Positions 7,765 to 59,852 of a stretch of 64,000 bases of DNA are shown in pieces (positions within the stretch are counted from its first letter, which is position 1; the number at the start of each line of letters is the position of its first letter). Source of the stretch: Paenibacillus terricola (GTDB taxonomy: Bacteria > Bacillota > Bacilli > Paenibacillales > Paenibacillaceae). The stretch is taken from contig NZ_JACXZA010000004.1 of NCBI RefSeq assembly GCF_014779765.1, forward strand, positions 558,001 through 622,000, written 5' to 3'. The notes beneath the pieces are model-generated. The model was not told where the DNA came from. It was given only the letters and a program-made list of their open reading frames with translations, and searched no databases. Position numbers and translations under genes: made by a program.

Positions 7765-8196
7765 ATGCTAGATATTAATGAAATTCAACAGATTATTCCT
7801 CATCGTCAGCCTTTTCTGCTCGTAGACCGCGTTCTTGAATTGGAGGAAGGCGTTCGTGCAGTCGGCATCAAGAATGTAACGATGAACGAGCCGTTCTTCG
7901 CAGGTCACTTCCCAGGCTATCCGGTTATGCCGGGTGTGTTGATCGTGGAAGCATTGGCGCAAGTCGGTGCGGTTGCCATTCTCAAAATGGAAGAAAACCG
8001 CGGCAGACTCGCCTTTTTCGCAGGCATCGACGAATTCCGTTTCCGCGGACAAGTGACGCCGGGCGATACGCTGCGTCTTGAGGTTGAGATTACCCGTCTT
8101 AAGGGTAAGATCGGTAAAGGACATGCGGTTGCGAAGGTTGATGACAAAGTTGTTGCCGAGGGCGGTATTATGTTCGCTCTATCCGATCCATCCTAA
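7765..8196 (+). CDS. fabZ: 3-hydroxyacyl-ACP dehydratase FabZ
   Basis: A 143-residue hot-dog fold enzyme that dehydrates 3-hydroxyacyl-ACP in fatty-acid elongation. The N-terminal [14 protein letters not shown] and the catalytic helix [20 protein letters not shown] (His at about residue 48, Glu at about 62) are complete. The frame is open upstream, but ATG 7765 with GGAGGT at 7753-7758 gives the standard protein length. fabZ follows flhP in the same region of the B. subtilis chromosome. Confidence 0.95.
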
Positions 8197-8314
8197 TGGA
8201 GGAAGATTGATTATCCGGCAGCAGTTAATAATTGTTCTAGCAAGAGTAACTATATAGAGAACGACGCAAAGTCGGCGCCATAGGCGAACATTGGGAGAGA
8301 GGAATGGTTTGTAA

Positions 8315-10027
8315 ATGTCGGTTAATGCAGCAGCAGTAGCAAAGTATGAGGAATGGCTTAACGACCCATCGATTGGCGAGGAGACGAAGAATGAGCTTCG
8401 CGCCATTGCAGGCAATGAAACGGAAATTGTCGACCGATTCTATCGCGATCTGGAGTTTGGCACAGGCGGACTCCGCGGTGTTATGGGTGCAGGTACGAAT
8501 CGGATGAATGCTTATACAGTAGGCAAAGCGACGCAGGGGCTTGCGGATTGGATTCTGTCATCGAACCCAGAAGCTCCGTCTGTCGTGATAGCCCACGATT
8601 CTCGCAACAATTCGCCTGAGTTTACGCTTGATGCAGCACTTGTACTTGCAGCGAATGGCATTACGACGTATTTGTTCCCGTCCCTTCGTCCTACACCTCA
8701 ATTGTCGTTCGCGGTCCGCGCGCTGAAAGCTACAGCTGGCATTGTGATTACAGCAAGCCATAACCCGCCTGAATATAACGGCTACAAAGCGTATAACAAA
8801 GATGGTTGCCAGCTTGTACCGCATGAAGCAGAGCAGGCGATTGGACGCATTAAGCAGGTAACGAGCTTTGATCAAGTCCGGACAATTACGCGTGAAGAAG
8901 CGGAAGCGCAAGGGCTGCTGCGCTGGCTTGGCGAAGACGCGGATGAGCAGTTTATTGAGACGGTTGCAGCACGCAGTGTCAATCCAGACCTGCTGAAGAA
9001 CGGTCTTGGCGAGCGTGTATCGGTCGTGTTCACTCCGCTTCATGGTTCGGGTAATTTGCCAGTGCGCGGCGTACTTGCGAAGGCTGGTTTCAGCAACGTG
9101 CATGTCGTACCAGAGCAGGAGCAGCCAGACGGCTATTTCAGCACGGTGAAATCGCCGAACCCGGAGGAGCGCGAAGCATTCACGAAGGCGATTGCGCTTG
9201 CGAAGGATGTTGATGCAGACATTATTATCGGTACGGACCCTGATGCGGACCGTATGGGTGCTGTTGTCCGTAACACGAATGGCGAATACGTTGTGCTGAC
9301 CGGTAACCAATCTGGTGCGATCATGGTCTACTACCTGCTCAGTCAACTGCGCGAGAAAGGCACATTGCCATCCAACGGTATTGTCGTGAAGACGATTGTA
9401 ACGAGTGAGATGGGTGCGGATATTGCGCGTTCATTCGGCGCGGATGTAACGAACACATTGACAGGCTTCAAGTATATCGGCGAGAAAATGACGCAGTACC
9501 AAGAAACGGGCGAGCGGACATTCCTGTTCGGCTATGAGGAGAGCTACGGCTATCTGACAGGCACATATGCGCGTGATAAAGATGCGGTAGTAGCTTCCTT
9601 GTTGATCTGTGAAGCTGCGGCATACTATAAGAGCCAAGGCAAGACGCTGTACGATGTGCTGCTCGAGCTGTACGCTCAGTATGGTACTTATCTCGAAGGC
9701 TTGCAATCACGTACGCTCAAAGGCTTGGATGGCGTTCAGAAGATCGGCGCTATTATGGACAACTGGCGTACGAGCCCGCCATCTGAGATCGCTGGCACAA
9801 ACGTCGACAGCGTCCTCGACTACAGTAAAGGATTGGATGGACTTCCGGCTGAGAACGTGTTGAAGTTCCTGCTCTCTGATGGCTCCTGGTTCTGCTTGCG
9901 TCCTTCAGGAACGGAACCGAAGATCAAAATCTATTTTGCCGTTCGCGGTCAGTCTCCTGATGAGGCATCAGCGAATCTTGAGCGTCTAACGACCGCTGTC
10001 ATGGAGCGAGTCGATCAACTAGCATAA
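8315..10027 (+). CDS. pgcA: Phosphoglucomutase/phosphomannomutase (PgcA type)
   Basis: A 570-residue alpha-D-phosphohexomutase converting glucose-6-phosphate and glucose-1-phosphate, which feeds UDP-glucose and envelope glycans. The four family motifs are present: the phosphoserine loop TASHNPPEYNGYK (about residue 145), the metal-binding loop GTDPDADRMG (about 307), the sugar loop GYEESYGYL (about 404), and the phosphate-binding loop RPSGTEPKIK (about 528). ATG 8315 follows GGGAGAGAGG. It is 13 bases upstream of the DUF5693 gene and likely starts a transcript that runs into csaB. Confidence 0.92.
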   Translation: MSVNAAAVAKYEEWLNDPSIGEETKNELRAIAGNETEIVDRFYRDLEFGTGGLRGVMGAGTNRMNAYTVGKATQGLADWILSSNPEAPSVVIAHDSRNNSPEFTLDAALVLAANGITTYLFPSLRPTPQLSFAVRALKATAGIVITASHNPPEYNGYKAYNKDGCQLVPHEAEQAIGRIKQVTSFDQVRTITREEAEAQGLLRWLGEDADEQFIETVAARSVNPDLLKNGLGERVSVVFTPLHGSGNLPVRGVLAKAGFSNVHVVPEQEQPDGYFSTVKSPNPEEREAFTKAIALAKDVDADIIIGTDPDADRMGAVVRNTNGEYVVLTGNQSGAIMVYYLLSQLREKGTLPSNGIVVKTIVTSEMGADIARSFGADVTNTLTGFKYIGEKMTQYQETGERTFLFGYEESYGYLTGTYARDKDAVVASLLICEAAAYYKSQGKTLYDVLLELYAQYGTYLEGLQSRTLKGLDGVQKIGAIMDNWRTSPPSEIAGTNVDSVLDYSKGLDGLPAENVLKFLLSDGSWFCLRPSGTEPKIKIYFAVRGQSPDEASANLERLTTAVMERVDQLA

Positions 10028-10040
10028 GGAGAGAACATCA

Positions 10041-12209
10041 GTGCTTCAATGGCAGCTTTGGAATCGTAAGTTTAGAGCCGTGCTCTGGACGCTTACCCTT
10101 ATCGGCGTAATCGCTGCATTGCCGCTTGGCATGCAGCGGTGGCAGATGGAGGGAACGTCTAAGCAGATCGAATATGTAATGAATTATAGAGATATCGAGC
10201 TGGTCGCTTCGTATCAATATAATCCGTCAGCATTCATTGATAAACAATTGCAGCAAATGAAAGAAGCTGGCGTGACGACGATGGCCGTCTTCGAGACGAC
10301 GCTGGACGATCTGGTTACTGCGAAGCGACTGACCGTCTATAATCAGTCTCAGCTCGCTTTGCTTCAAGGCAAAGCGGCTAACCTGGGATTGAATGAAACG
10401 TACGTCCTATTCGCAGGAAATGAAGAAGCACAGGTATTGAAGCCGCTTATCACTGCTTCCTTTGAACGCGCAGGCATCAGTGTTGCGCCGTGGGCAATGG
10501 ATGGCCGTACGGGACTTCAAATCAGTGCACCGATCGAAACAGCATCGCTCATCTCGATGAACCCAGACCCGCTTGCCATGGATCGTATCCATGCAGCTGG
10601 TTTCCGTATTCTTCCTCGCATCTCGGATCGGATACTTCCTTACAACGAGGATGAGGCGCGAGCGCAGCTGCAGCAGTTCAAGAGCTACGGCGTAGACCGT
10701 ATCCTGTTCGATGGCTCCGCGGTGAAAGGGTTCACCGACAATGCAGAACTGCACAGCTTGAACTCGTTCGCGAATCTTCTTAAAGAAGAGGGCATTGGTA
10801 TTGCGGCGATAGAGGGGCTGAAAGCGCCGCAGAGCGGATTTAATACGCTTGCTTATTTGACGGACTATAATGTCGTAAGGCTGCATTCGATTGCGAGCAC
10901 ACTATCGACTACGATTTCGCCAGAGACGCTGAAAGACCGGTTCTTGCTCGCTGCTAAAGATCGTAACATTCGCATGTTCTATCTCAATGCCGGTGCAAGC
11001 CGAAGCCTGGATAAGGGCGGCGTCGTAGATCCGCTGGACAAGCTTGCTTCTGCGCTTCAAGGTCCGGATGGCGCCATCCAGAAGCTTAAAGACTTCGGAT
11101 TCCCTCCTGGTCCAGCAGAACCATTCGATGTGAAGACAGCTAGCTGGGCGAAAGCGGCCAAAGCCATTGTATGTCTTGGCGCTGTCAGCCTGATCGCGCT
11201 GCTGATTGGCGCATTCGCTAACTGGCTTACGATTCCGGCATTCCTTCTTGGCCTTGTTGGCAGCGGAGGGCTGTATGTCCTGTCCAAGCAGACGCTTGAA
11301 CAGGGGTTGGCGTTGGGCGCTGCGATCAGCGCTCCGACGCTATCGCTGATCTGGGTGCTAAACGTCATCCGCAGACGGACGGAAGGGACCCGTCGCAATG
11401 TAGGCGGCGACTGGGGCTCCAATAACCGTCCGCAATCGAATGCTCCAACGGGCAATCGTGGAGAGAATGGCAAGTGGACTTCGCTGCTTGGCGATGTGTT
11501 TGCAGTAGGTCGCATCAAATGGATTTTCACTGGTTTGCCAGCGGGGCAGCGCTTCGGCAATGCGATTACACTCTTTGTCTTCGCTAGCTTGATCTCGATG
11601 CTAGGCATTCCCTTCGTATTCGGCTTGTTGAACAACATTACGTACAGTTTGCTGCTGGAGCAATTCCGCGGGGTCAGCCTGCTGCACCTCGCGCCGATTT
11701 TCCTCGTAGCGCTGTATCTGTTCCTGTATATGGGCTCTTCGGTGCTTGAGAATCTTCGCAAGCTGTTGTCGATCCAGATCACTGTATTTTGGATTATCGC
11801 AGCTGCGATATTGGGCATAGTTGGTTTGTATTATTTGTCGAGAACGGGCAATGAAGGACAAGCTTCTTCGCTAGAGATGATGATGCGCAATACGCTGGAA
11901 ACGACATTTGGCGTTCGCCCGCGGTTTAAAGAGTTTGCACTTGCGCACCCACTTCTGCTGCTCGGATTGTTCTTATCGCTTCGTTATCGCGCAGCATGGG
12001 TATTGGTAGTTGTAGGCTCCATTGGCCAATTGTCGATGGTGGATACATTTGCTCATATTCATACGCCGTTGCAAATTTCGTTGATTCGCGATCTGCTCGG
12101 CCTCTGCATCGGAGCAGCTATTGGCTGCGTACTCATCGCAGTGTGGCAGCTTGGGGAAGGGGTATGGCGCAGATGGGTAAGACCAGCAATCGTCAAGTCC
12201 GTCGGGTAA
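10041..12209 (+). CDS. DUF5693 family multi-pass membrane protein
   Basis: A 722-residue protein with one N-terminal membrane helix (about residues 14-30), a soluble part of about 330 residues that looks like a barrel-type domain, and then a helix-rich membrane half from about residue 370. A cytoplasm-like basic loop splits that half near residues 445-490. GTG 10041 follows AAGGAGA. The family is found in Firmicutes next to csaB, as here, where its 3' end overlaps csaB by 46 bases. A role in SCWP or surface-protein assembly is inferred from this position only; biochemical function is unknown. Confidence 0.75.
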   Translation: MLQWQLWNRKFRAVLWTLTLIGVIAALPLGMQRWQMEGTSKQIEYVMNYRDIELVASYQYNPSAFIDKQLQQMKEAGVTTMAVFETTLDDLVTAKRLTVYNQSQLALLQGKAANLGLNETYVLFAGNEEAQVLKPLITASFERAGISVAPWAMDGRTGLQISAPIETASLISMNPDPLAMDRIHAAGFRILPRISDRILPYNEDEARAQLQQFKSYGVDRILFDGSAVKGFTDNAELHSLNSFANLLKEEGIGIAAIEGLKAPQSGFNTLAYLTDYNVVRLHSIASTLSTTISPETLKDRFLLAAKDRNIRMFYLNAGASRSLDKGGVVDPLDKLASALQGPDGAIQKLKDFGFPPGPAEPFDVKTASWAKAAKAIVCLGAVSLIALLIGAFANWLTIPAFLLGLVGSGGLYVLSKQTLEQGLALGAAISAPTLSLIWVLNVIRRRTEGTRRNVGGDWGSNNRPQSNAPTGNRGENGKWTSLLGDVFAVGRIKWIFTGLPAGQRFGNAITLFVFASLISMLGIPFVFGLLNNITYSLLLEQFRGVSLLHLAPIFLVALYLFLYMGSSVLENLRKLLSIQITVFWIIAAAILGIVGLYYLSRTGNEGQASSLEMMMRNTLETTFGVRPRFKEFALAHPLLLLGLFLSLRYRAAWVLVVVGSIGQLSMVDTFAHIHTPLQISLIRDLLGLCIGAAIGCVLIAVWQLGEGVWRRWVRPAIVKSVG

Positions 12210-13303
12210 TCGTTTCTGGATACTATGGTTTCAATAACAGCGGCGATGAGGCGGTTCTGAAGTCGATTCTGAATGCGCTGCATGCGGAAGGCGAAGCGCA
12301 GGGCGTTACATTCGAGCCTGTTGTGCTCTCTGCCGATCCAGCATGGACTACGAAGATGTACGGTTGTGAGGCAGTTCCACGGATGAGCCCATCCGTACTG
12401 CTTCGCGAGATCCGTCGCTGCGATGGACTTATCAGCGGCGGCGGCAGCCTTCTGCAGGATGCGACAGGATGGAAGACGATTCCGTATTATACGGGCGTTC
12501 TTACGCTGGCGCAGATGCTCGGCAAACCGACTTTTATTTATTCGCAAGGCGTTGGTCCAGTCAATCGCGGATGGTTGTTCGCACCTATTCGCCGCGTCAT
12601 GAACAAGAGCAAATATGTATCTGTTCGTGACGCGGAATCAGCAGCGCTGCTCGGTCGAATTGGCGTCGCTCAAGAGCGGATCGAGGTCGTTCCTGACCCG
12701 GTAATGGGATTGCCGCTTCCGGAAGGCGCTGACCTGTCATTAGCGGCTGCAGCTAATGATATGCCGATCATCGGTGTATCCTTACGCCATTGGCGCAAGG
12801 ATGGCGCGGATCTGGAGCGTGCGGCTGCTGCGCTTGCGGCATTGGCATCCCGCCGCGCCGTTCGTTTCCGCTTCCTGCCGTTCCATACGCCTGACGATGC
12901 TGTTACATCGCAGGTCGTCATGGATCGGCTGAAGGCGATTGGCATTGGCAGCAGTGTTGCAGAGCTTGCAGCGCCAAGCGATGATCCGCAGCAGATGCTG
13001 CTGGAAGTCAGCCGCTGCGACATGATGTTCGGCATGCGTCTGCATGCGCTGATCTACGCTGCCAATCAGCGGATTCCGCTGATCGGTTTGTCTTACGATC
13101 CGAAGATCGATCAGTTCCTTAATCGATTGGGGCTAACCGCAGTCGGAACGACCGAACAGCTCGATCCGGAGCAGTTCGCTTCCGGCGCAGATGCGCTGCT
13201 TAACGATCTGGACGGGTGGCGCACACGGCACGGAGAAGCAATTGATCGGTTGAAGCGCGAGGCGCAGCGTCCGGCACAGCAAATTGCAGCGCTGCTGAGT
13301 TAA
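12164..13303 (+). CDS. csaB: Polysaccharide pyruvyl transferase CsaB
   Basis: A 379-residue enzyme that puts ketal pyruvate on the secondary cell wall polymer, the modification recognised by SLH domains. Family landmarks are the N-terminal SGYYGFNNSGDEAVL, SGGGSLLQD at about residue 96, a YSQGVGP motif, and the C-terminal MFGMRLHALIYAANQ. I chose ATG 12164 with GGGGAAGGGG just before it; ATG 12173 is an alternative with better spacing. The gene overlaps the DUF5693 gene by 46 bases, so translation is probably coupled. It is the functional link to the three SLH proteins downstream. Confidence 0.93.
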   Translation: MAQMGKTSNRQVRRVIVSGYYGFNNSGDEAVLKSILNALHAEGEAQGVTFEPVVLSADPAWTTKMYGCEAVPRMSPSVLLREIRRCDGLISGGGSLLQDATGWKTIPYYTGVLTLAQMLGKPTFIYSQGVGPVNRGWLFAPIRRVMNKSKYVSVRDAESAALLGRIGVAQERIEVVPDPVMGLPLPEGADLSLAAAANDMPIIGVSLRHWRKDGADLERAAAALAALASRRAVRFRFLPFHTPDDAVTSQVVMDRLKAIGIGSSVAELAAPSDDPQQMLLEVSRCDMMFGMRLHALIYAANQRIPLIGLSYDPKIDQFLNRLGLTAVGTTEQLDPEQFASGADALLNDLDGWRTRHGEAIDRLKREAQRPAQQIAALLS

Positions 13304-48796: not shown

Positions 48797-49729
48797 GTGC
48801 CTATTCGGTTGACCGGTATGAGTTCGGGACTTGACGTAGAGTCAATGGTTAAAGAGCTTATGAAAGCCGAACGTATTCCTGTGAATAAGCTGCAGCAGAA
48901 GAAGCAGACCATTCAATGGAAAGTAGATGCCTACACTGGCTTTAACCTCAAGTTTTCGGCAATGCGCGAATCAATATCGACTTTGAGGTTTTCAAGCGGC
49001 TGGAAGAAGACGGATTCCAATGGTAATACTGTTCGACTTAGCACGGATGAAATGGTAACTAAGATCAAGGACTTTGTAAGCAAATATAATGAAATGGTCA
49101 CTTCTGTGAACGGTGATTTAACAGAAAAAGTTGACAACAATTATAGACCGCTTACTTCAGACGAGAAAGCTGCCATGAACGAGACTGATATTACAAACTG
49201 GGAGAACAAAGCGAAGGAAGGATTGCTTCGTAATGATTCTATCCTACGGACTGTACTCAGTGATATGCGTGGAATTCCATCTGCCGTTCTAACAGGCACT
49301 GGTGTAAACACGAATTATGACACATTGAGTGAAATTGGTATTAAAACGAATATGTTCGTTATCGGTTCCTCTGAGAATGGCAAACTGCAAATCGACGAGA
49401 CGAAGCTTCGGGCGGCAATCGAAGCAGATCCTGACGCTGTCGTTTCTCTATTAACCAAACAAGGAACAGGTTCGGATCGAGGACTCCTTCAGCGAGTCTA
49501 CGAAACAATGAACACAGCTATGACGCAAGTATCTCGCAAAATTAATGGCGGTATAGGAACGGCAGCTAGCCTAGTAAAGCAAATGTCCGATATTGATAAA
49601 AACATAATCAGTAAGAATACTATGTTGGACAAACGCGAAGAGTTCTACTATAAAATGTTCTCTAATATGGAAGCGGCTGTGAATAAAGGAAACGCTCAAA
49701 TGGCTTGGCTATCGCAACAATTCGGATAA
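48797..49729 (+). CDS. fliD: Filament cap protein FliD, very short form
   Basis: A 310-residue FliD; most family members have 450-600. The N-terminal coiled-coil part is normal (RLTGMSSGLDVESMVKELM...) up to about residue 66. The C-terminal part is also normal, from STDEMVTKIKDFVSKYNEMV at about residue 82 to YKMFSNMEAAVNKGNAQMAW. The joining stretch is only about 15 residues (GWKKTDSNGNTVR), so the whole D2-D3 head region is missing. The frame is intact and no stop or frameshift is seen. GTG 48797 follows GAAGGGG. It fits a short flagellin filament. Confidence 0.9.
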   Translation: MPIRLTGMSSGLDVESMVKELMKAERIPVNKLQQKKQTIQWKVDAYTGFNLKFSAMRESISTLRFSSGWKKTDSNGNTVRLSTDEMVTKIKDFVSKYNEMVTSVNGDLTEKVDNNYRPLTSDEKAAMNETDITNWENKAKEGLLRNDSILRTVLSDMRGIPSAVLTGTGVNTNYDTLSEIGIKTNMFVIGSSENGKLQIDETKLRAAIEADPDAVVSLLTKQGTGSDRGLLQRVYETMNTAMTQVSRKINGGIGTAASLVKQMSDIDKNIISKNTMLDKREEFYYKMFSNMEAAVNKGNAQMAWLSQQFG

Positions 49730-49748
49730 TGAAAGGGCTGTGAGTAGA

Positions 49749-50102
49749 ATGGAAATTTCAACTCAAGTACAGCCGGTTCAGTCACAAACGTTCAAAGAGT
49801 CTGCTTCATTTCAACGAGTAGCCGGGGAGTATCAGGTTCTGAAGGTTAAAGGTAAAACTAATATTCTGTCCGTCAGTGAACAGGCGCTGGTTAAAGCGAT
49901 TGAGAAAGCGAACCGAGCCGTGCAGGGAACAGAGCATACGTTCCATTACAAAATTCATGAGGCGACACACGATGTCATTGTGCAAATTCTAGACAAGAAA
50001 ACGAATGAAGTCGTACATGAGATCCCTTCCGAGAAATTTATAGACTTGATCGAAAAGCTGAAAGAGCTAACTGTGGGAGCTATCATTGACGAAAAAAGGT
50101 GA
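49749..50102 (+). CDS. flaG: FlaG family flagellar protein
   Basis: A 117-residue member of the FlaG/YvyC family, affecting filament length. The first 40 residues are variable. The conserved domain follows: ALVKAIEKANRAVQGTEHTFHYKIHEATHDVIVQILD continuing NEVVHEIPSEKFIDLIEKL. ATG 49749 fits AAAGGG at 49731-49736 better than GTG 49740, only a few bases away from it. It lies between fliD and fliS. Confidence 0.88.
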   Translation: MEISTQVQPVQSQTFKESASFQRVAGEYQVLKVKGKTNILSVSEQALVKAIEKANRAVQGTEHTFHYKIHEATHDVIVQILDKKTNEVVHEIPSEKFIDLIEKLKELTVGAIIDEKR

Positions 50103-50110
50103 GATAAAAT

Positions 50111-50500
50111 ATGCAGCAGGCACAAAATAGTTATTTGCATACGAAAGTTCAAACTTCTTCTCCGGGACAATTGACGCTTATGCTTTACAATGGATGCCTA
50201 AAGTTTATCAAGCTAGCTGTAATCAGCATCGAGAAGCGGGACTATGAAGGAAAGCATGTAAACTTTGTAAAGGCACAAAATATAATTGAAGAGCTTCAGT
50301 CAACCCTGAAGATGGAATATGAATTGTCGGTGCAGTTAAGTCAGCTGTATACTTTTATCAATCAGAAGCTCATAGAGGCGAATGTGAAGCAAGATATTAA
50401 AGCTGCGGAAGACTGCATTCATTTAATATCAGAGCTTCGCGACACATGGGTTGAGGCTTTGAAAGAGTTGGGTCAAGGCGGAATGGTATCATCACTATGA
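50111..50500 (+). CDS. fliS: Flagellin chaperone FliS
   Basis: A 129-residue helical chaperone that binds flagellin's C-terminus and delivers it to the export gate. Typical elements are the N-terminal YLHTKVQTSSPGQLTLMLYNG, then FVKAQNIIEELQSTL, and the C-terminal DLIHLISELRDTWVEAL-like helix. RBS GGTGAGATAAAAT is weak. It overlaps fliT by four bases. Confidence 0.93.
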   Translation: MQQAQNSYLHTKVQTSSPGQLTLMLYNGCLKFIKLAVISIEKRDYEGKHVNFVKAQNIIEELQSTLKMEYELSVQLSQLYTFINQKLIEANVKQDIKAAEDCIHLISELRDTWVEALKELGQGGMVSSL

Positions 50501-50856
50501 AAACAGTAGATGAATTGCTGAAAGAGCTGAAGGATGTCGCCCATTCAGTTCTACAAATTAATCTGAAGGAAGAAGCAAACCATGGTTTGCTTCTTTTATT
50601 GCAAGATCAACAAGCCGATATTAGGAAGAAAATCGATGAAGTCACCTCGGATTCATTTAGTGGATATACGCCCGAGCAACTAGATATACTGAGGGATTGC
50701 ATAGAGATGGAACAAGAAAATATAAATCGGGTGGAATTGATGAAAGCGGAGATAGGCGAGAAGATCGCTAATTTATCCAAGAGTAAGATAGGTCGAAATG
50801 CCTATCAAGGTGAAATGATTCAACATATCGGGTATTTTATTGATAATCATCAATAA
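50497..50856 (+). CDS. fliT: FliT-like flagellar protein
   Basis: A 119-residue helical protein at the fliT position; ATG overlaps the fliS stop (ATGA), so the two are translationally coupled. It is rich in Glu/Lys/Leu with long predicted helices (residues 1-45 and 60-105) and has no catalytic motif. FliT proteins act as FliD chaperones, but sequence conservation is low. The assignment rests mostly on position and length. Confidence 0.75.
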   Translation: MKTVDELLKELKDVAHSVLQINLKEEANHGLLLLLQDQQADIRKKIDEVTSDSFSGYTPEQLDILRDCIEMEQENINRVELMKAEIGEKIANLSKSKIGRNAYQGEMIQHIGYFIDNHQ

Positions 50857-50929
50857 ATTAATTGTATTTATGGTTAAAATATACTAAAATTACTATTGTA
50901 AATAGTTGTTTCTGTATTAATCGAACATA

Positions 50930-51018
50930 TTGGCAAAACTGTAGAAATACAGCGACGCAAAGCTATGGGTCTTCATTCCTGGGGGGAAATCACTAGGATT
51001 AAGATTGCCAGGTTGCCC
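50930..51018 (+). promoter_or_regulatory. c-di-GMP-I (GEMM-I) riboswitch aptamer
   Basis: Consensus GEMM-I elements appear in order: GGCAAA (50932-50937), a small stem CTGT/ACAG closed by a GAAA tetraloop (50939-50951), GACGCAAAGC (50954-50963), and the 3' segment GCCAGGTTGCC (51007-51017). GGCAA pairs with TTGCC (51013-51017) to form P1. The terminator/antiterminator switch begins right after it. Confidence 0.9.
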
Positions 51019-51068
51019 ATTGTTTTTGTATTCCAAAACAATAGCAACCTGCTATTGTTTTTTTTTAT
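51011..51068 (+). terminator. Riboswitch expression platform: terminator and competing antiterminator
   Basis: The terminator is AAAACAATAGCA (51035-51046) with TGCTATTGTTTT (51050-51061), 12 perfect pairs, then Ts. The antiterminator is GGTTGC (51011-51016) with GCAACC (51044-51049), plus ATTGTTTT (51019-51026) with AAAACAAT (51035-51042). GGTTGC is also needed for aptamer P1, so ligand binding should favour the terminator and switch transcription off. Confidence 0.8.
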
Positions 51069-51089: not shown

Positions 51090-53987
51090 ATGGTTAAAGC
51101 AAGGCAAGGTATTATGCTCTTGTTTGCGATGTGGATTGCAATCAGCGGACTATTCCTGCAGCCACAGCAAACAAATGCAGCGACTACTGACTACGTTACA
51201 GTAACAAAGTCAGCTAATCCGTCTGCAATCACGACATTGGATGAGGTTGATGTTCAACTTAGTATTACGGGCACACCACCTGTTAATGTGACAGTGCCAA
51301 ACGATGTCGTTTTAGTAATTGACAAGTCGGGCAGTATGGCTCCATCTTATAACAATGGCGAAGACAAAATGAAGAACGCGAAAGAAGCGGCTAAAGGCTT
51401 CGTCGATTTGATGGATTTATCGGTACATCGAGTAGCGGTCGTCGATTTTTCCTCGACGAACATGATTGGAAGCCTTGATTTTACAACGGATAAACAGCAG
51501 GCTAAAAATTATATCGATACAATCTCGGCAAATGGATCTACCGCTACAGGCGATGCAATTGATGTTGCGAGAGGTTTGCTTGCCAACCACCGTCCTGAGG
51601 CTCAGCCGGTGATCGTAATTATGACAGACGGAGATGCAACGCAACCATCTACAGATCCTTACCAGTATGCAAAAGATAAGGCGATGCAAGCCAAAGCGGA
51701 AGGAATTATCTTCTATACGATTGCATTGCTTAAATCAACTGATAACCCAGATACAAGCGGTCCCAACATCTTGCTAAAGGATATGGCTACGACAGCGAAC
51801 CATCACCACTTTGTATTGGGGTCAACGGGTCTAAGTGAAATCTATGCGGCCATTGTCAAAGAAATCGGCTTGGCCAGTGCGTATGATGTTAAGGTGACAG
51901 ACATAGTAAGTAATGATTTCGAGATTGTGCCTGGTTCCTATGATAATAATATTCCGAAACCTGTTGTGAATGGGAATACATTGACTTGGACCTTTAACGA
52001 ATTGAAGAACAGCACGTTGAACTTTACTTATAAGATTCGTCCGGTAAGTAAAACGAAAACAGGCAAATTGCCTATATCATTGACGACTTCGAATATTTCT
52101 TACAAAGACTATGCGGGTGCGACTCGTACTAAGGCTATTCCCGTTGTAAGTGTGGACGTCAAACTGCCGGCTCCAATCGTAACGTCCGTAACGGAGCCTT
52201 CCGGACCTCCGGCAGGAGGACAAACGGTTACAATCAAAGGTAAAAATTTCGTTCAAGGCGCGACTGTAACATTTGGTTCTACCCTTGCGAAAAACGTAGT
52301 TGTCGTAAGTGACTCGGAAATTACGGTGACGGCACCGGCTGGAGCACAAGGAACAGTAGACGTAGCTGTTCGAAATCCAGATGGCCAAAATGCAAAGGGC
52401 TCTTATCAATATATTATTGATCCTATTGTTACTGCAATAACTCCGCCGAACGGACCGCTTGCTGGTAGCAATATCGTTACAATTGATGGGAATTATTTCA
52501 TGAAAGGCGTAACGGTTTTGTTTGGAGATAAGGCCGGTTCAGTTTCAGTCTTCTCTGTCGCTCAGTTGAAAGTGGTTGTACCGGTAGGGGCGCAAGCTGG
52601 TCCAGTAGATGTGAAGATTACAAATCCTGATGGAACCAGTGTTACTGTGTCTGGAGGTTATACGTACGATGCAGCGCCGTCTACAGATCCAGAAATAACG
52701 TCTGTATCTCCTAACTCCGGGCTTGTAACTGGCGGAAATACAATCTACATTAATGGTAAAAACTTTAAATCAGGCATGAAAGCAGTTGTAGGCGGTAAAG
52801 ATGCAGCAACTGTATATGTTACTAATGCGCAATTGAGATTAACGGTTCCTGCCGCTGATCAACCAGGAACGGTCGACGTTGCAGTTCGTGATCTGGATGG
52901 AAAGTTATTCGTTAAAGAACAAAGCTATACGTACAATCCCATTGTATATCCGACTCCAACAGTGACATCCATTGCACCTGTTAGTGGTCCGCTGGCTGGT
53001 GGAAATACGGTTTACATTTATGGTACAAACTTTGTTAATGGCGTTTCGAAAGTTTTTATCGGATCAAAAGAAGTAACGGCGGTATATGTGAACTCAACAA
53101 CACTGCGTTTCACTATGCCGGCAGGTGATGCCGCTGGTAAAGTCGATGTAAAAGTGGCAAATACAGACCAAGAAGCTGTGCTGCCGCAGGCCTATGAGTA
53201 TATCGCACCAGTTATTTCACAGGTTAAAATCACAGACATCAGTCCCAATACGAGTACTGTTTCCGGTGGAATTATCGCTTATATTAACGGAGAGAACTTT
53301 ATGTCAGGGGCTACCGTTACGTTAGGCGGCACCAATGCCAGTACGGCATACGTGAATGCAACACAACTTCGAATCACCGTACCTGCAGCGACTGCACCAG
53401 GTTTAGTCGACTTGACGGTAACTAACAAAGACGGTGGTACTGCAACATTGACGGGTGGGTTTGAATATACACCGGTGCTTCCGCAAATTACGGGTGTGAG
53501 TCCAGGGAATGCGAGCCGTGCCGGCGGAGCATTGATCTATGTTAATGGTACGAATTTTAACACGTCCGCAATCGTAAGCATCAACGGTGTAAATGCTACT
53601 ACGGCTTATGTTAGCACTCAACAATTGCGGGTAACGGTGCCAGCAAGCTCGACTGTTGGAACGGTTCCGCTTGTTGTTACATTATCAAATGGACAGACGG
53701 CATCGACTACTTTTGTATACGATGATCTGCCTACTACGCCTCCCCCTACATTGACGAGTCTGACTCCGACAAGCGCGAAGGTAGGAGCTACGATTTATAT
53801 TTACGGTAAAGACTTCAAGAATAAACCGAAAGTGTTCTTCGGTTCTGTAGAAGCTACGAGTGTCACATATGTAAATACGACGACCGTACGGGTAGTTGTA
53901 CCTGCTGGAAACACCGGCACAGTTGAGGTGAAAGTCGTAAATCCAGATACACAAGAGAGCAATACGCTAACATTTACGTATAACTAA
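51090..53987 (+). CDS. Secreted vWA protein with seven IPT/TIG repeats (probable adhesin)
   Basis: A 965-residue protein with signal peptide (GIMLLFAMWIAISGLFL, cleavage near TNAA). A von Willebrand A domain at about residues 72-255 has an intact MIDAS: DKSGSMAP, a Thr in STATGDA, and MTDGDA. A linker beta domain follows, then seven IPT/TIG Ig-like domains. Each begins near PxVTSVxPxSGxxxGGxTVxIxGxNF and ends with VxVxNPDG-type strands. There is no SLH, LPXTG or C-terminal helix, so attachment is unclear. It lies behind a c-di-GMP riboswitch and between flagellar genes. The architecture suggests matrix or cell adhesion in the motile/sessile switch. Confidence 0.87.
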   Translation: MVKARQGIMLLFAMWIAISGLFLQPQQTNAATTDYVTVTKSANPSAITTLDEVDVQLSITGTPPVNVTVPNDVVLVIDKSGSMAPSYNNGEDKMKNAKEAAKGFVDLMDLSVHRVAVVDFSSTNMIGSLDFTTDKQQAKNYIDTISANGSTATGDAIDVARGLLANHRPEAQPVIVIMTDGDATQPSTDPYQYAKDKAMQAKAEGIIFYTIALLKSTDNPDTSGPNILLKDMATTANHHHFVLGSTGLSEIYAAIVKEIGLASAYDVKVTDIVSNDFEIVPGSYDNNIPKPVVNGNTLTWTFNELKNSTLNFTYKIRPVSKTKTGKLPISLTTSNISYKDYAGATRTKAIPVVSVDVKLPAPIVTSVTEPSGPPAGGQTVTIKGKNFVQGATVTFGSTLAKNVVVVSDSEITVTAPAGAQGTVDVAVRNPDGQNAKGSYQYIIDPIVTAITPPNGPLAGSNIVTIDGNYFMKGVTVLFGDKAGSVSVFSVAQLKVVVPVGAQAGPVDVKITNPDGTSVTVSGGYTYDAAPSTDPEITSVSPNSGLVTGGNTIYINGKNFKSGMKAVVGGKDAATVYVTNAQLRLTVPAADQPGTVDVAVRDLDGKLFVKEQSYTYNPIVYPTPTVTSIAPVSGPLAGGNTVYIYGTNFVNGVSKVFIGSKEVTAVYVNSTTLRFTMPAGDAAGKVDVKVANTDQEAVLPQAYEYIAPVISQVKITDISPNTSTVSGGIIAYINGENFMSGATVTLGGTNASTAYVNATQLRITVPAATAPGLVDLTVTNKDGGTATLTGGFEYTPVLPQITGVSPGNASRAGGALIYVNGTNFNTSAIVSINGVNATTAYVSTQQLRVTVPASSTVGTVPLVVTLSNGQTASTTFVYDDLPTTPPPTLTSLTPTSAKVGATIYIYGKDFKNKPKVFFGSVEATSVTYVNTTTVRVVVPAGNTGTVEVKVVNPDTQESNTLTFTYN

Positions 53988-54059: not shown

Positions 54060-55985
54060 CTAGAGAAATACACAAGTGGATTTGTCAGGAAACATATTAA
54101 AGTAATTAGGGGAAAACGAGCGGTAATCGGTTTTGTCCGCGTTTTCTTTAATTCTACCTATTACATCCAAACTTGGAGCTGTAGCAAACGCAGCCTTGTA
54201 AAACATTGTTCCATCAGATGTATTGCCGTTATTGTAGTACCATTGACCAACATTAGCATGCCCTTGTGCTTGTAAAGCTTCATTATCCAGTAATATGCTG
54301 TAGAGATCGATTGCTAATTCTATCAGTCCATGATCATAAAACCAATTAGCTATAAAATTTATTGTTTCCGTATTCGCCATATTTTGTATAAGAGCTGTAT
54401 ATTCGGCGATATATTCATATTTCCACATGTTTAATATTACATTTGCCAATAATTCTTCGTTTTCGATAATAGTTTCTTGGTTCCAATCTTTTTGTTCAAG
54501 GACTAACATTGCTTGAACAGAGAGTTGCTTGCATACTTCGAAGTTATACCAGCTCGCCGGTATGAAATTAAGATTCTTGCTAAGAATGGCTGAGGTAACT
54601 GCTAACGAATCAGGTACAGATTGAAGGTCATGTTGAATGTACTCGTGAAGCGATTCTTTTTGAGACATTCTTCTGATTAGTAAATCGGATATATCTAGAT
54701 TTATATGTAATTCATCTATTTGATATCCATAATGTTCAATGAGCTTGCGGTTTCCGATTTTCAATGAAATTTTAAATAAAACGATGGAATTAAGCTGATC
54801 TTGTGGCGGGTATATTCGCTCAATGAAAGGAATCACCGCATCAACAGGTTCAAATAGTAGTAGATGCTCAATAAGGCGCTGCAGAACGTTATAGTTTTTG
54901 GGCTGCAACTGTAGTGTCTTCACCCAATGATTTATGGCTCTCGAGAAGTCTCCTCTTTTACGTGCGATTTCGGCTAACATCTGATGTGGAACGATTTGTG
55001 CATAGGTTGGTTGAACGGGTTTGTGTTGAAGTGATCTACCATTCGATACAAATCGATTTGAGATGTCAATACAATGCAGAAACTTCTCCTCAGCTGCAGT
55101 CCATAGACCTAACGTTTCATAAAGCAGGCCCTCCATACAGTGGAGATCCGTATTGAGTGGGGCTAGTTTAATTTCCTTTTTCAAGAGGGATGAAGCTTCA
55201 CTATGTTTGCCCTCTTTTAGAAGTAATGAAATGTACCGGTCTAGAAGATGATAGTACCATGCATCAGCTGGTTTGGATTTTGCATAAGAACGTCGATATA
55301 TGGTCAATGCCTCGCTATTACGTTCAGCATTACTATATTCATTTCCGAGCGTAAAACAGAAGTACGGATCATGCTGTTTTTCAATTGTATTTATTTTCTC
55401 GAATAAGGCTAGGTTACGCTCCGACTTATTCTTGTTACGTACGATAGAATCAGTATAGCCAGTATGATAAATAGTAGTTGTGATCGGCAATGGCGAGAAA
55501 GAAATATGTCCTAGATTTGAAACGAGTTGCTCGTGAATGATACCGTTATAACGGATGGAACCGTCATTGAAAAATAAACGGGCTCCCGTCGAGGCCATTA
55601 CATTTTGTTCGTCATAACCACTTCCGGTAAAATTCAAAATATTCAAGGTGAATCCGATTGGGTGGTTTATATTAGCGTTGTTCTGTAATAGGTCACGAAG
55701 TTGCTGATGTCCATCTGTGCTCATATACTCATCGGCATCCAGAACTAGGATCCATTTACCTGTGGCGTGGCGGATAGATTCGTTGCGTGCAGCCGCAAAA
55801 TCATTATTCCAGCAGAAATCGTATACGCGATCGGTGTATTGAAGCGCAATTTGTTTTGTTTGGTCGTTAGAACCCGTATCAACAATAATGATTTCATCTA
55901 CAAGCGTTTTCACGCTATCCAGACATCGGGCCAGGACATTCTCTTCATTCTTGACGATCATACATAACGATATTAAATTGCACAT
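54060..55985 (-). CDS. Family 2 glycosyltransferase with TPR repeats
   Basis: A 641-residue cytoplasmic protein. The N-terminal GT2 domain (residues 1-220) begins ISLCMIVKNEENVLARCL, with IIIVDTGSNDQT, RNESIRHATGKWILVLDADEY (DxD metal-binding motif) and HTGYTDS. After residue 230 there are helix-pair repeats of TPR type (EALTIYRRSYAKSKPADAW, LEGLLYETLGLWTAAEEKF-like). TGGAGGACCT precedes ATG 55985. A SigD-type promoter lies just upstream, and the gene is located among flagellar genes. GT-TPR proteins in such positions are known flagellin or surface protein glycosylators; this substrate is an inference. Confidence 0.85.
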   Translation of the reverse strand: MCNLISLCMIVKNEENVLARCLDSVKTLVDEIIIVDTGSNDQTKQIALQYTDRVYDFCWNNDFAAARNESIRHATGKWILVLDADEYMSTDGHQQLRDLLQNNANINHPIGFTLNILNFTGSGYDEQNVMASTGARLFFNDGSIRYNGIIHEQLVSNLGHISFSPLPITTTIYHTGYTDSIVRNKNKSERNLALFEKINTIEKQHDPYFCFTLGNEYSNAERNSEALTIYRRSYAKSKPADAWYYHLLDRYISLLLKEGKHSEASSLLKKEIKLAPLNTDLHCMEGLLYETLGLWTAAEEKFLHCIDISNRFVSNGRSLQHKPVQPTYAQIVPHQMLAEIARKRGDFSRAINHWVKTLQLQPKNYNVLQRLIEHLLLFEPVDAVIPFIERIYPPQDQLNSIVLFKISLKIGNRKLIEHYGYQIDELHINLDISDLLIRRMSQKESLHEYIQHDLQSVPDSLAVTSAILSKNLNFIPASWYNFEVCKQLSVQAMLVLEQKDWNQETIIENEELLANVILNMWKYEYIAEYTALIQNMANTETINFIANWFYDHGLIELAIDLYSILLDNEALQAQGHANVGQWYYNNGNTSDGTMFYKAAFATAPSLDVIGRIKENADKTDYRSFSPNYFNMFPDKSTCVFL

Positions 55986-56153: not shown

Positions 56154-59100
56154 TTATTGAACAGTTACGTTGATTGTTGCCACCGTTTGAAATCCTGCAG
56201 CGTCGATAACGGTTATTTTAACCGTATAGATTCCTGCAGCTGCTGCGACGTTGGTTGATTTTGTGCCGTTCCAAGCTGCTGTATAAGAGCCGGCATCTTG
56301 TTGAGTACTAGATTGAATAGTTCGAACTAACGTGTTCGTAGAAGTATACACAGCGATCGTTACTTTGCTTGCCTCGGAGATTGTATATCCGATTGTTGTC
56401 GTTCCGCCAACTGCAATCGTCATCGGGGATGCCGATAAATTAGTTACGCTAGGAGCGGTTTTATCAGTATCGATCGTGCCGGACGCTTCCTCAGCCGAGT
56501 GGCCCTCAAGATCAATGGCATTAATCTTGTAAGTATACGTGCCATCCTCGACAAGTGCTCCTGCATCGTTCTTGCCATTCCAAGCAATTGATTTGGCGCC
56601 GGCAGTTGTAGCGGCTTGATACAGTGTCCGTACAAGAATGCCTTCAGCATTATAAATGTTAATCGTTACATTGGCTTCCTCGGACAACGTGTACTTAATG
56701 GTAGCGGTTGATGTTCCGGTCACTTTCAACAAAGCAGGCGTTGCACTTACGGACGTAATCTTTGGAGCGCCAGTCTCAATATCGAACGGAACCGACTGTG
56801 TACTAGTGAAGCCGACAGCATCTGTTGTCGTTACTTTGATGGAATAAGCGCCGTCGGTAGCGAATGTCGTTGTCGTAACTTTACCGTCCCATTCAACCGT
56901 TTGGGCCCCAGCTTCTGTAGCTTTGCTGCTCCAGAGCGTCTTCACCGTTGCGTTCTTGCTGTTGACAATTGCTACGGTCGTCTTGCCGCTCTCGGATACG
57001 TTAAAGCCGATCGTCAGGCTATTGCTACCGGTAGGAGCGAAGACGGAAGGTGATGCGGATAGATTGCTAATCACAGGTGTTGTTTTGTCGGTTGTGATCG
57101 TTCCCTGCGACTCAGCCGTTAGTCCGGTTCCATCCTCAACCGAAATCTTATACGTGTATGTTCCATCCTCGACAAGTGCGCCCGCATCGTTTTTGCCATT
57201 CCAAGTGATAGACTTGGTGCCAGTCGTTTGGGCTGTTGCATTCGCGAGCGTGCGAACGACATTGCCTTGTGAATTAACAATAAGAACGGTTGCGGCTACT
57301 GGTTCGGACAGCGTGTATTTTATTGTAGCATTGGCTGTCCCTGTTACCTTGAAAGGATTCGGTGTTGCGCTGACCGAAGTGATTTTCGGGGCGCCCGATT
57401 CAATTGAGAAGGAAACCGATTGCGTTGCGGTCAAACCGACAGTATCGGTCGTCGTTACTTTTAACGTATACGTTCCGTCTGGTGCAAATGCAGTTGAGGA
57501 GGTTTTACCGTCCCAAGTCAGCGTCTGAGTGCCGGTCGTTGTAGCTGCATTGCTGGCGAACGTTTTAACAGTAGCGTTACTGCTGTTAATTAATGTAACG
57601 GTTGTTTTTCCAGGTTCAGAGAGCGTGTAGTTAAAGGTAATCGAATTGCTGCCGTTAGGCTCGAATAGCTCAGTTGATGCGGCTAGCTCAGTAATCGCAG
57701 GAGCTGTGGTATCGACTGTAATGGTTCCTGTTGCTACATTGCGGAATCCAAATTCATCGATCTCCGCAGTAATGAGATAGGTATAGATTCCGTCTGGCAC
57801 AATTAATCCGGAATCGTTTTTGCCATTCCAAGCAACTGATTTTGAACCTAATGTTTGCGACACATGGTCAATAAGTGTACGTACGATGACTCCATCGGCA
57901 TTTTGAAGCGTTACTGTAATAGCGGCGTCATCGGACAATGTATATTTGATCGCTGAAGTATTCGTTCCAGTCGGCTTAAAGGGATTTACTGTTGCGCTGA
58001 CCGACGTTAAGTACGGCCCTTTATAATTGATATAACCAAACTTTTCAATTTTCGTTACGTGACCCGCGGAGTCTTTTGCCTCTACACGGTATGTATATTT
58101 ACCTTCAGCTGTGATGCCGATATTGTTGGCAGTATCATGAATAATGACCGAGTTGTATCCAGCACTCTGCGGCTCGTTCGATAAGAAGGTATACACGAGT
58201 TTATTCAGATTATTGTATGCCGTTACTGTAACTAAGCTATCTTCTGACAACTCATATTCATATCCGAATACCCCACCTTCATAATAAAAGTGTTTGAAAC
58301 CTTCCAAAGCAGGTGCTTCGCTATCGACCGTAATGGTGGCGTACTGGGTCTGGAATCCGATCCCGCTTGCTGAAGCGTCAAGCTCGATCTGGTAGTCGCC
58401 GGATGGCACGAGCGCGTTCGAATTGTTTTTGCCATTCCAGGTAAAGGTATATGTGCCGGCGCTTTTCGTGACATTGGTTTGAACAGTTTTAACCAGATTC
58501 ATGGCCGAGTCGTAGATTTTGATAGAAACAGATGCTGATTTATCCAGTGAATAGGATACAGAAGTTGTATTAGAGCCGGTTGGTCCGAATGGATTGGCCG
58601 ATATTTGATTAAATCTCAGGCCAAGCGTATTAGCATTAGGATTAGCGTTTAATGCGGCGTTAACGTCGACCAGCCCGTAGCCAAATGTGTTATCTCGTCC
58701 GACAGTGCCGAGATCAACTGTAGTCGTCATGAGCAAGCGGGTAAGGTCTGCTGTTCCGAGTTCAGGGTGATGAGACCAGACAAGAGCGGCAGCGCCTGCT
58801 ACTACAGGAGACGCCATAGATGTACCCTGCTTGTACTCGTAACCGCCGCCTGGAACGGTACTCAATATTTCGGTGCCTGGCGCGGAAATGTCGACTGTTG
58901 ATCCATAGTTGGAGAAGCTTGCCTTCTTATTGTTCTGATCCGTTGCAACGACACTAATAACATTGTCTAATGCAGCCGGATAGTTCGCAGCCGAAGAATT
59001 GTTGTTCCCCGCGGCAGCTACGACCAATACGCCATGGCTATTTGCATAATTCACGGCATCCTGCATAGCTTGCGAGTAGCTGCTGAAACCTAGGCTCATA

Positions 59101-59852
59101 TTTATAATAGAAGCGCCATGGTCAGTAGCCCATTGAATAGCCTCAATAACATCCAGTGATGATCCTGTTCCGCCGTCGTTCATTGCTTTAAGGGGCATGA
59201 TTTTGCTTGAAGCAGCAATGCCTGCTATTCCTTGGCCGTTATTCATCGTTGCAGCAATAATGCCTGCTACATGGGTGCCATGACTATGAATATCTTCCGT
59301 GTTAGTCGTATTGTCTATCGTATTATAGCCTGCTACTAGGTTGGTTACGAGATCGGGATGGTCGGAGTCAACGCCTGTGTCGATAACGGCAACGACTGTA
59401 CTTTGGCTCCCGGTGGTGGTGTTCCATGCTTGATCGGCTTTGACTCTAGGTACGTACCACTGCTCGGCATAACGTGTGTCGGATGGGTTGTCGAATACGG
59501 TGCCGATATAGTTAGGTTCTGCATACTCGACTCGTGCATCTGCCTGCAGTTTAGGCAATTCTGTAGCTACAGTGGCACCTGGAGCGAGTTCAATCGTCGA
59601 AACATCGAGTGGACCACTGGCTGCACCAGCGGCAACGTCGCCATTCACGACTTCGGCTACTGTGTCGGGATTCACGCCAGGCTTGAATTTCACGATTAGC
59701 TCTCCTTCTATATAAGGAAGGTTTGCATTGTACACCTCGCCTGACTGATTACTGGATTGCTCCCCGAATGCAACAGGGGAAGCGAAGGCGAGACTTTGCG
59801 CTGTAACTAAAGCAGCGAGCGCAATTTTCCACTTGCGAGATTTTAAAGCCAT
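56154..59852 (-). CDS. Secreted subtilisin-like protease with eight FlgD-type Ig repeats
   Basis: A 1232-residue S8 protease precursor. The signal peptide (residues 1-30) is followed by a Fervidolysin-like/inhibitor-I9-type propeptide of about 90 residues (EGELIVKFKPGV). The catalytic domain lies at about residues 130-400, with Asp158 (VIDTGVDSDHPD), His191 (HGTHVAG), oxyanion Asn283 (AAGNNN) and Ser345 (GTSMASPVVAG). The rest is eight FlgD-like Ig domains. From about residue 615 these alternate between two types, one ending WNGKNDAGALVEDGTYTYK and one WDGK..F..DG.Y.LKVTTTD. RBS CAGGAGGG precedes ATG 59852. There is no wall anchor. It is possibly SigD-linked, like B. subtilis epr. Confidence 0.92.
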   Translation of the reverse strand: MALKSRKWKIALAALVTAQSLAFASPVAFGEQSSNQSGEVYNANLPYIEGELIVKFKPGVNPDTVAEVVNGDVAAGAASGPLDVSTIELAPGATVATELPKLQADARVEYAEPNYIGTVFDNPSDTRYAEQWYVPRVKADQAWNTTTGSQSTVVAVIDTGVDSDHPDLVTNLVAGYNTIDNTTNTEDIHSHGTHVAGIIAATMNNGQGIAGIAASSKIMPLKAMNDGGTGSSLDVIEAIQWATDHGASIINMSLGFSSYSQAMQDAVNYANSHGVLVVAAAGNNNSSAANYPAALDNVISVVATDQNNKKASFSNYGSTVDISAPGTEILSTVPGGGYEYKQGTSMASPVVAGAAALVWSHHPELGTADLTRLLMTTTVDLGTVGRDNTFGYGLVDVNAALNANPNANTLGLRFNQISANPFGPTGSNTTSVSYSLDKSASVSIKIYDSAMNLVKTVQTNVTKSAGTYTFTWNGKNNSNALVPSGDYQIELDASASGIGFQTQYATITVDSEAPALEGFKHFYYEGGVFGYEYELSEDSLVTVTAYNNLNKLVYTFLSNEPQSAGYNSVIIHDTANNIGITAEGKYTYRVEAKDSAGHVTKIEKFGYINYKGPYLTSVSATVNPFKPTGTNTSAIKYTLSDDAAITVTLQNADGVIVRTLIDHVSQTLGSKSVAWNGKNDSGLIVPDGIYTYLITAEIDEFGFRNVATGTITVDTTAPAITELAASTELFEPNGSNSITFNYTLSEPGKTTVTLINSSNATVKTFASNAATTTGTQTLTWDGKTSSTAFAPDGTYTLKVTTTDTVGLTATQSVSFSIESGAPKITSVSATPNPFKVTGTANATIKYTLSEPVAATVLIVNSQGNVVRTLANATAQTTGTKSITWNGKNDAGALVEDGTYTYKISVEDGTGLTAESQGTITTDKTTPVISNLSASPSVFAPTGSNSLTIGFNVSESGKTTVAIVNSKNATVKTLWSSKATEAGAQTVEWDGKVTTTTFATDGAYSIKVTTTDAVGFTSTQSVPFDIETGAPKITSVSATPALLKVTGTSTATIKYTLSEEANVTINIYNAEGILVRTLYQAATTAGAKSIAWNGKNDAGALVEDGTYTYKINAIDLEGHSAEEASGTIDTDKTAPSVTNLSASPMTIAVGGTTTIGYTISEASKVTIAVYTSTNTLVRTIQSSTQQDAGSYTAAWNGTKSTNVAAAAGIYTVKITVIDAAGFQTVATINVTVQ

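Follow-up and report, generated by a model that had tools for sequence, protein, structure and literature searches.

In C. difficile, Cd1 (Cdi-1-3) is a class I c-di-GMP riboswitch of the flgB flagellar operon and a proven OFF switch, in which the ligand leads to termination (PMC9262584). It acts on a motility target and has a terminator that is separate from the aptamer and can coexist with it (PMC6366702, PMC9262584). In C. difficile, every class I switch that functions is described as OFF (PMC6366702). In Bacillus thuringiensis, Bc2, a class I aptamer with terminator control that lies before cap, the gene for a large exported surface protein, is instead an ON switch, and its target is a collagen adhesin (PMC4933901). 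Since the C. difficile switches of class I are OFF but Bc2 is ON, the polarity of a further member must come from its platform, not from its class.

The protein that concerns us has a likely counterpart in Paenibacillus sp. NAIST15-1. As described in PMC5072692, CmoA of that strain is secreted and has a signal sequence, one vWFA domain and eight IPT/TIG domains; flagella-driven movement of colonies over hard agar depends on it. Deletion of cmoA leaves the strain unable to spread on 1.0 and 1.5% agar, although flagella are still made; CmoA is induced on agar, and exogenous CmoA restores movement to the mutant. The cmoA gene is located behind yvyC-fliD-fliS and a small gene. The authors speculate that CmoA might help cells cluster, and they name Cohnella thermotolerans as a carrier of a CmoA homologue. 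The terms c-di-GMP, GGDEF, cyclic and riboswitch are absent from the main text of that paper, and a literature search, thin on subscription journals, found no report of a riboswitch at cmoA.

We propose, with a probability of roughly 0.8, that the leader of a cmoA orthologue in Paenibacillus terricola is a transcriptional OFF switch composed of a c-di-GMP-I aptamer and an intrinsic terminator. The leader is a new instance of a known riboswitch class, and cmoA is a newly recognised target gene. The aptamer, the terminator, the alternative pairing, their conservation, the gene order and the domain match to CmoA can be read from the sequence itself, as follows.

The aptamer and its place behind the flagellar genes

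The DNA analysed, referred to here as the window, is a 64,000-nt stretch of P. terricola (contig NZ_JACXZA010000004.1, assembly GCF_014779765.1), and coordinates are window positions unless another locus is named. A cmscan search against Rfam places a c-di-GMP-I (GEMM-I, RF01051) aptamer at 50922–51020 on the + strand; the match scores 63.6 bits, where the gathering cut-off is 35, and has an E-value of 4.1e-10. The match covers the whole model, positions 1–87 of 87, and is the sole Rfam match in the 64-kb window at gathering scores. An earlier note, which had proposed this covariance search, read all the GEMM-I landmarks at 50930–51068; its coordinates are correct within about 10 nt, and the landmarks are borne out by the full-model match together with intact contact bases. 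The candidate ligand-contact bases, read from the sequence, are G50933, A50960 and C51016, which we take, by our own mapping onto Vc2, to be the equivalents of Vc2 G20, A47 and C92. Vc2 G20 is described as equivalent to Cd1 G11 in PMC9262584, where the role of Cd1 C87 is also treated. The selectivity G and the conserved GACGCAAA are seen in all ten aptamer-bearing cmoA leaders, the ligand-pairing C of the window being C51016.

An A at the GEMM-I selectivity position marks the cGAMP type, and the window has G50933 there. The genome also supports signalling by c-di-GMP, with five RF01051 aptamers, 17 GGDEF matches and 9 EAL matches. That the aptamer senses 3',3'-cGAMP in place of c-di-GMP is therefore extremely improbable, although cGAMP-type GEMM-I aptamers are closely related and the selectivity position is presented as a factor and no hard filter (PMC9262584). 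The class II c-di-GMP riboswitch, RF01786, has no match in this genome, but as the control genomes gave none either, the search is no evidence of its absence.

The gene order in the window is fliD, flaG, fliS, a small gene, the riboswitch and cmoA, all on the + strand. The fliD gene (48797–49729) is short, encoding 310 aa, with FliD_N and FliD_C both present; it is followed by flaG/yvyC (49740–50102; Pfam FlaG, 9.4e-20), fliS (50111–50500; Pfam FliS, 7.2e-38) and, at the fliT position between fliS and the riboswitch, a small gene without a Pfam match whose product ends in GYFIDNHQ (50497–50856). The cmoA-like gene (51090–53987) encodes 965 aa with one vWA domain (Pfam VWA, 3.8e-18) and seven TIG repeats (Pfam TIG, 3.6e-93 in seven stretches), which bears out the vWA/IPT protein that had been placed downstream of the riboswitch. 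By eye, the N-terminus resembles a signal peptide and no LPXTG-like anchor is seen; Pfam finds no SLH domain. On the - strand beyond cmoA lie a glycosyltransferase/TPR gene (54060–55985), with a similar gene by eye at 10688–12601 of locus L020 (Paenibacillus sp. Root444D2), and then a large subtilase (56154–59852) with seven FlgD Ig-like repeats in Pfam.

The window protein matches CmoA in its domains and gene order: both loci have a secreted, or secreted-looking, vWFA and IPT/TIG protein behind flagellar genes and a small gene, and by this analogy a link to surface motility is supported. The loci differ in that no terminator between the genes is described in NAIST15-1, where the authors inferred co-transcription (PMC5072692). 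The switch could also act on a vWA/TIG surface protein that shares only architecture and place with CmoA and has another function. The TIG count, seven here and eight in NAIST15-1, would suit such a protein, and the likeness to NAIST15-1 CmoA rests on domains and place. We consider it unlikely, given that 42 of the 43 distinct cmoA loci assembled below (46 of 47 with duplicates) have fliS upstream in the same orientation, and that the homologue of Cohnella thermotolerans, listed as such by the authors of PMC5072692, was found with the window protein as query, at 75% identity N-terminally. The exception is L036, where transposase-like genes stand upstream, near prfB and secA (named by eye).

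The small gene between fliS and cmoA is called 'different' in each species in PMC5072692. At the cmoA loci compared here, its product mostly ends in a (G/A/S)(F/Y)F(I/V)D-like motif, with exceptions that include L033, L043 and L056. Because position and C-terminal motif are mostly common to the loci, the sequences suggest that these small genes are one diverged FliT-like family.

As for transcription into the leader, the best promoter site before the aptamer in the window is TTGTAT-17-TAAAAT, a score that 25% of shuffles reach. Over the ten aptamer-bearing loci the mean promoter score is 11.97, against a maximum of 11.14 among 200 shuffled means, in a scan with author-made weights and no published matrix; L026 and L028 score strongest, and L036 falls below its shuffles. 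A local promoter is likely in some of the relatives and unproven in the window. For the interval from the small gene to the aptamer in the window, two scans list no terminator-like site on the + strand, so read-through from the flagellar operon into the leader is possible. Hairpin-plus-T sites ahead of the aptamer were found in two of the ten leaders, L033 and L029, by a script whose rules do not admit the downstream terminators of L026 and L028, so that it missed them; in L029 it found no downstream terminator.

Competing helices and the proposed direction of the switch

The intrinsic terminator (51035–51066, +) has a 12-bp stem at 51035–51061, a triloop and a U tract. A scan of 1.5 kb on both strands gives four terminator-like sites, against 1.1 ± 1.3 in shuffles, and this one has the most pairs. 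Two further helices make up an antiterminator. In the outer one, AGGUUGC at 51010–51016, which holds the 3' strand of aptamer P3 and the ligand-pairing C, can pair with GCAACCU at 51044–51050, which overlaps the 5' arm and the loop of the terminator (AGGTTGC and GCAACCT in the DNA). The inner hairpin, 51019–51042, joins AUUGUUUU (51019–51026) to AAAACAAU (51035–51042) in eight standard pairs, or, in DNA letters, ATTGTTTT to AAAACAAT; over both helices, 15 of 15 pairs are standard. The antiterminator excludes both the aptamer and the terminator. These two do not overlap and can coexist.

The fold energies come from a nearest-neighbour model that includes neither the ligand nor tertiary contacts. 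When successive transcript ends are folded, the inner hairpin enters the minimum free energy (MFE) structure at ends 51041–51045 and stays until the terminator arm emerges; the outer helix is absent up to 51045, the full antiterminator is present at ends 51049–51057, and the terminator takes over from 51061 on. Thus, in this model, the ligand-free RNA adopts the antiterminator before the terminator arm has emerged. At full length the best folds are almost balanced, with −38.4 kcal/mol for the antiterminator and −39.7 kcal/mol for the terminator. At length 51020 the aptamer fold costs 5.3 kcal/mol more than the free MFE. At 51057 a fold that keeps the aptamer costs 9.1 kcal/mol more than the antiterminator, and at full length the combination of aptamer and terminator still costs 4.9 kcal/mol more than the antiterminator. 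Since the model never favours the aptamer fold, ligand and tertiary contacts must pay for the aptamer state.

The pre-terminator segment of the window folds at −14.6 kcal/mol, against −3.9 ± 1.9 kcal/mol when its downstream part is shuffled, and none of 500 shuffles is as low. The same fold in L019 and L020 is likewise below all 500 shuffles, and in L024 and L027 it beats all but 1 and 3 of them. It is moderate in L026, L028 and L033, where 7.2, 5.0 and 2.6% of shuffles are as low, the leader of L026 preferring another fold than the antiterminator. L036 does no better than its shuffles and has no convincing antiterminator.

The switch is proposed to work as follows. At low c-di-GMP, GCAACCU would capture AGGUUGC on emergence; aptamer P3 and the ligand pocket would be lost, the 5' arm of the terminator would be held, and polymerase would read into cmoA. 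Bound c-di-GMP would lock P3 and C51016 and block the antiterminator, so that the 12-bp hairpin would form and transcription would end near 51066. Expression of the secreted vWA/TIG protein CmoA would thus be shut off at high c-di-GMP, and the upstream filament genes would be unaffected by this element. Ligand binding, the direction of switching, the promoter that feeds the leader and the same job for CmoA in this organism are what we infer as parts of this best explanation.

The layout is like that of Cd1, with the terminator outside the aptamer and the antiterminator overlapping both the aptamer 3' strand and the terminator 5' arm. The Cd1 antiterminator includes the pairs G147–C87 and C148–G86 (PMC9262584), and that of the window the pairs C51016–G51044 and G51015–C51045; in both, it takes up the ligand-pairing C together with the G beside it. 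Since aptamer and terminator coexist and the antiterminator takes the P3 3' strand with C51016, as in Cd1, OFF logic, in which the ligand favours termination, is the best reading, and the folding models fit it. In contrast to the window switch, which comes after the filament genes and before the gene of one secreted protein, Cd1 heads an early flagellar operon that includes sigD.

The opposite logic would have c-di-GMP favour read-through into the gene of a sessile-state adhesin. Bc2 of B. thuringiensis sets a precedent, since it is of class I, switches ON and precedes the gene of a collagen adhesin (PMC4933901), and in the leader of P. harenae (L021/L029) the 3' strand of a GGC-type aptamer would need to form the terminator arm. 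In the window, however, the terminator (51035–51061) is outside the aptamer (50922–51020), so the ligand cannot prevent the terminator by locking the aptamer; the competing helix destroys the aptamer, and the motility of NAIST15-1 requires CmoA (PMC5072692). An ON switch at this locus is thus very improbable.

Several claims of the earlier note can be judged here. It had GGTTGC of the aptamer pair alternatively with GCAACC inside the terminator arm: the pairs are confirmed, but GCAACC is only partly in the terminator 5' arm (GCA), the rest (ACC) being in the loop. Its prediction of termination with ligand is supported as the best reading by the layout and the likeness to Cd1. It further suggested a role in the motile state, as opposed to a biofilm adhesin. 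That role gains independent support from the match to CmoA in domains and place and from the upstream fliS, but OFF logic alone would not show it, because class I polarity varies between species; nor should the contrast with an adhesin be drawn sharply, because CmoA may itself help cells cluster.

Spread, conservation and decay of the leader

Matches to the cmoA product with E-values up to 1e-60 were found in 33 of 295 family genomes, and 30 of these 33 entered the later counts as loci. Searches of three genera with E-values up to 1e-100 gave matches in 3 of 37, 2 of 51 and 14 of 100 genomes, partly overlapping, of which the third adds 11 loci. Six named loci were added, four of them duplicating others (L017 and L053, for example, have the same leader), and the distinct cmoA loci number 43, window included. 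An aptamer precedes cmoA in ten of them, nine assigned to RF01051 and one to RF03167. Five aptamer-less loci (L022, L025, L030, L031 and L035) were searched in Rfam at E-values up to 10, which gave five chance-looking matches and no c-di-GMP family; the remaining ones were searched at gathering scores. No riboswitch or remnant is seen at 31 of the 43 loci, and so cmoA is not generally in need of a riboswitch.

In a midpoint-rooted tree of 42 of the 43 proteins, which leaves out one locus with masked sequence, the ten aptamer-bearing loci fall in one clade of 15, read off the drawn tree and supported at 96/91. This clade also takes in two loci with decayed leaders and three that have no such leader, and several forks within it are poorly supported. 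A label test compares the ten aptamer-bearing rows with the two decayed rows only (40 of 500 shuffles as low) and therefore does not address clustering against the 30 other rows.

The distance from the preceding stop to cmoA is 232–478 nt in the ten riboswitch loci, the value of 478 belonging to L036, where the preceding frame is perhaps no gene. The two loci with decayed leaders have distances of 157 and 244 nt, and the 31 loci without a riboswitch have 13–111 nt, with a median of 18. Since the spacing is wide only in riboswitch and decayed loci, the leader seems to be an insertion in an operon that is older than itself; the simplest reading of the sequences would be a single insertion of a regulatory leader into a tight ancestral operon.

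Conservation was followed in an alignment of eight leaders, that of the window and seven more, taken from all further aptamer-bearing loci except L036 and the GGC-type L029. Standard pairs fill 98.6% of the aptamer cells, where three P2 pairs have changed on both sides, and 96.7% of the terminator cells, where two pairs have done so. The outer antiterminator helix is paired in 51 of 56 cells (91.1%), with one pair changed on both sides; mismatches in L024 and L033 are among the five unpaired cells. One G-U pair of P3 is lost in L028 through a U-to-A change, for which the antiterminator arm carries a compensating change; the antiterminator pair concerned is mismatched in L024. Because 126 of 500 shuffles reach the observed values, the antiterminator covariation is only suggestive and falls short of proof, L028 being the most telling case.

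Among ten aptamer-less leaders compared with the riboswitch leaders, those of L022 and L035 are similar and the other eight are within shuffles. The Cohnella thermotolerans leader (L022) aligns with three riboswitch leaders at scores of 75–101, against shuffle maxima of 33–41. At about 4815–4985 of that locus the aptamer survives in its 3' half and is eroded in its 5' half, the terminator is kept, and by its sequence this leader is a decayed c-di-GMP riboswitch before cmoA. The terminator region of L035 scores 43, 44 and 34 against shuffle maxima of 30, 36 and 38, the comparison with L026 being the one not above its shuffles.

These remnants bear on the idea that the window aptamer binds c-di-GMP with little switching in the cell, the terminator being a simple attenuator that keeps cmoA expression below that of the flagellar genes. 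The Cohnella leader, which retains the aptamer 3' half and the terminator with no c-di-GMP family at E-values up to 10, and the related terminator region of L035 agree with it, as do the ligand-free aptamer fold that the model never favours and Bc1 of B. thuringiensis, described as binding c-di-GMP while its genes are without response (PMC11218506). Nevertheless, the contact bases and the alternative pairing of the window are intact, the antiterminator helix is largely paired across the eight leaders, and the pre-terminator fold of the window beats 500 of 500 shuffles. A mere attenuator is thus quite unlikely, and a working OFF switch is the reading we retain for the window.

P. harenae (L021/L029) has a separate terminator-like hairpin ahead of the leader, and its aptamer is GGC-type. 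In L029 the only candidate terminator arm, read by eye, lies in the aptamer, before a T9 run, and ON is therefore predicted; the candidate hairpin is weak, at −4.6 kcal/mol, and absent from the terminator scan list. Tentatively, the cmoA leader of P. harenae, seen in one genome, may have been rewired to ON. It is tempting to propose that one Paenibacillaceae clade inserted a c-di-GMP gate into the ancestral flagellar operon, that the gate decayed in some members, such as Cohnella, and that the opposite polarity was rebuilt in at least one, P. harenae, a history that we regard as possible and still rather doubtful.

Other c-di-GMP aptamers and the meaning of the proposed cmoA switch

Aptamers of the same class lie before other genes as well. 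Directly after cmoA, L020 has a second c-di-GMP-I aptamer (7849–7941 of that locus, 71.5 bits), with a T run almost directly 3' of it, preceding a gene at 7980–10640 for an exported-looking protein of 886 aa that has a long Pro/Thr repeat and, by eye, CmoA-like TIG repeats. Elsewhere in the P. terricola genome, such aptamers stand before an MCP/HAMP chemotaxis receptor (L001) and before exported-looking proteins without a Pfam match (L002 and L005). In five of six genus genomes, P. terricola included, a c-di-GMP-I aptamer precedes a similar gene (L003, L008, L010, L014 and L015), the other four being matched to the P. terricola copy by eye. Because that copy has a PilZ domain, a c-di-GMP riboswitch may here control a c-di-GMP receptor.

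The collective motility of Paenibacillus, with its 'wandering colonies', depends on CmoA in the single strain examined (PMC5072692), and the riboswitch in the cmoA leader offers a direct, single-gene test of c-di-GMP control over it. The related leaders, intact, decayed and possibly reversed in sign, form a natural series for the gain and loss of a riboswitch within an operon. If the proposals made here are true, c-di-GMP would cut just the secreted factor for collective movement, with the filament genes still transcribed, and the sign of the switch on one and the same gene would differ between relatives.
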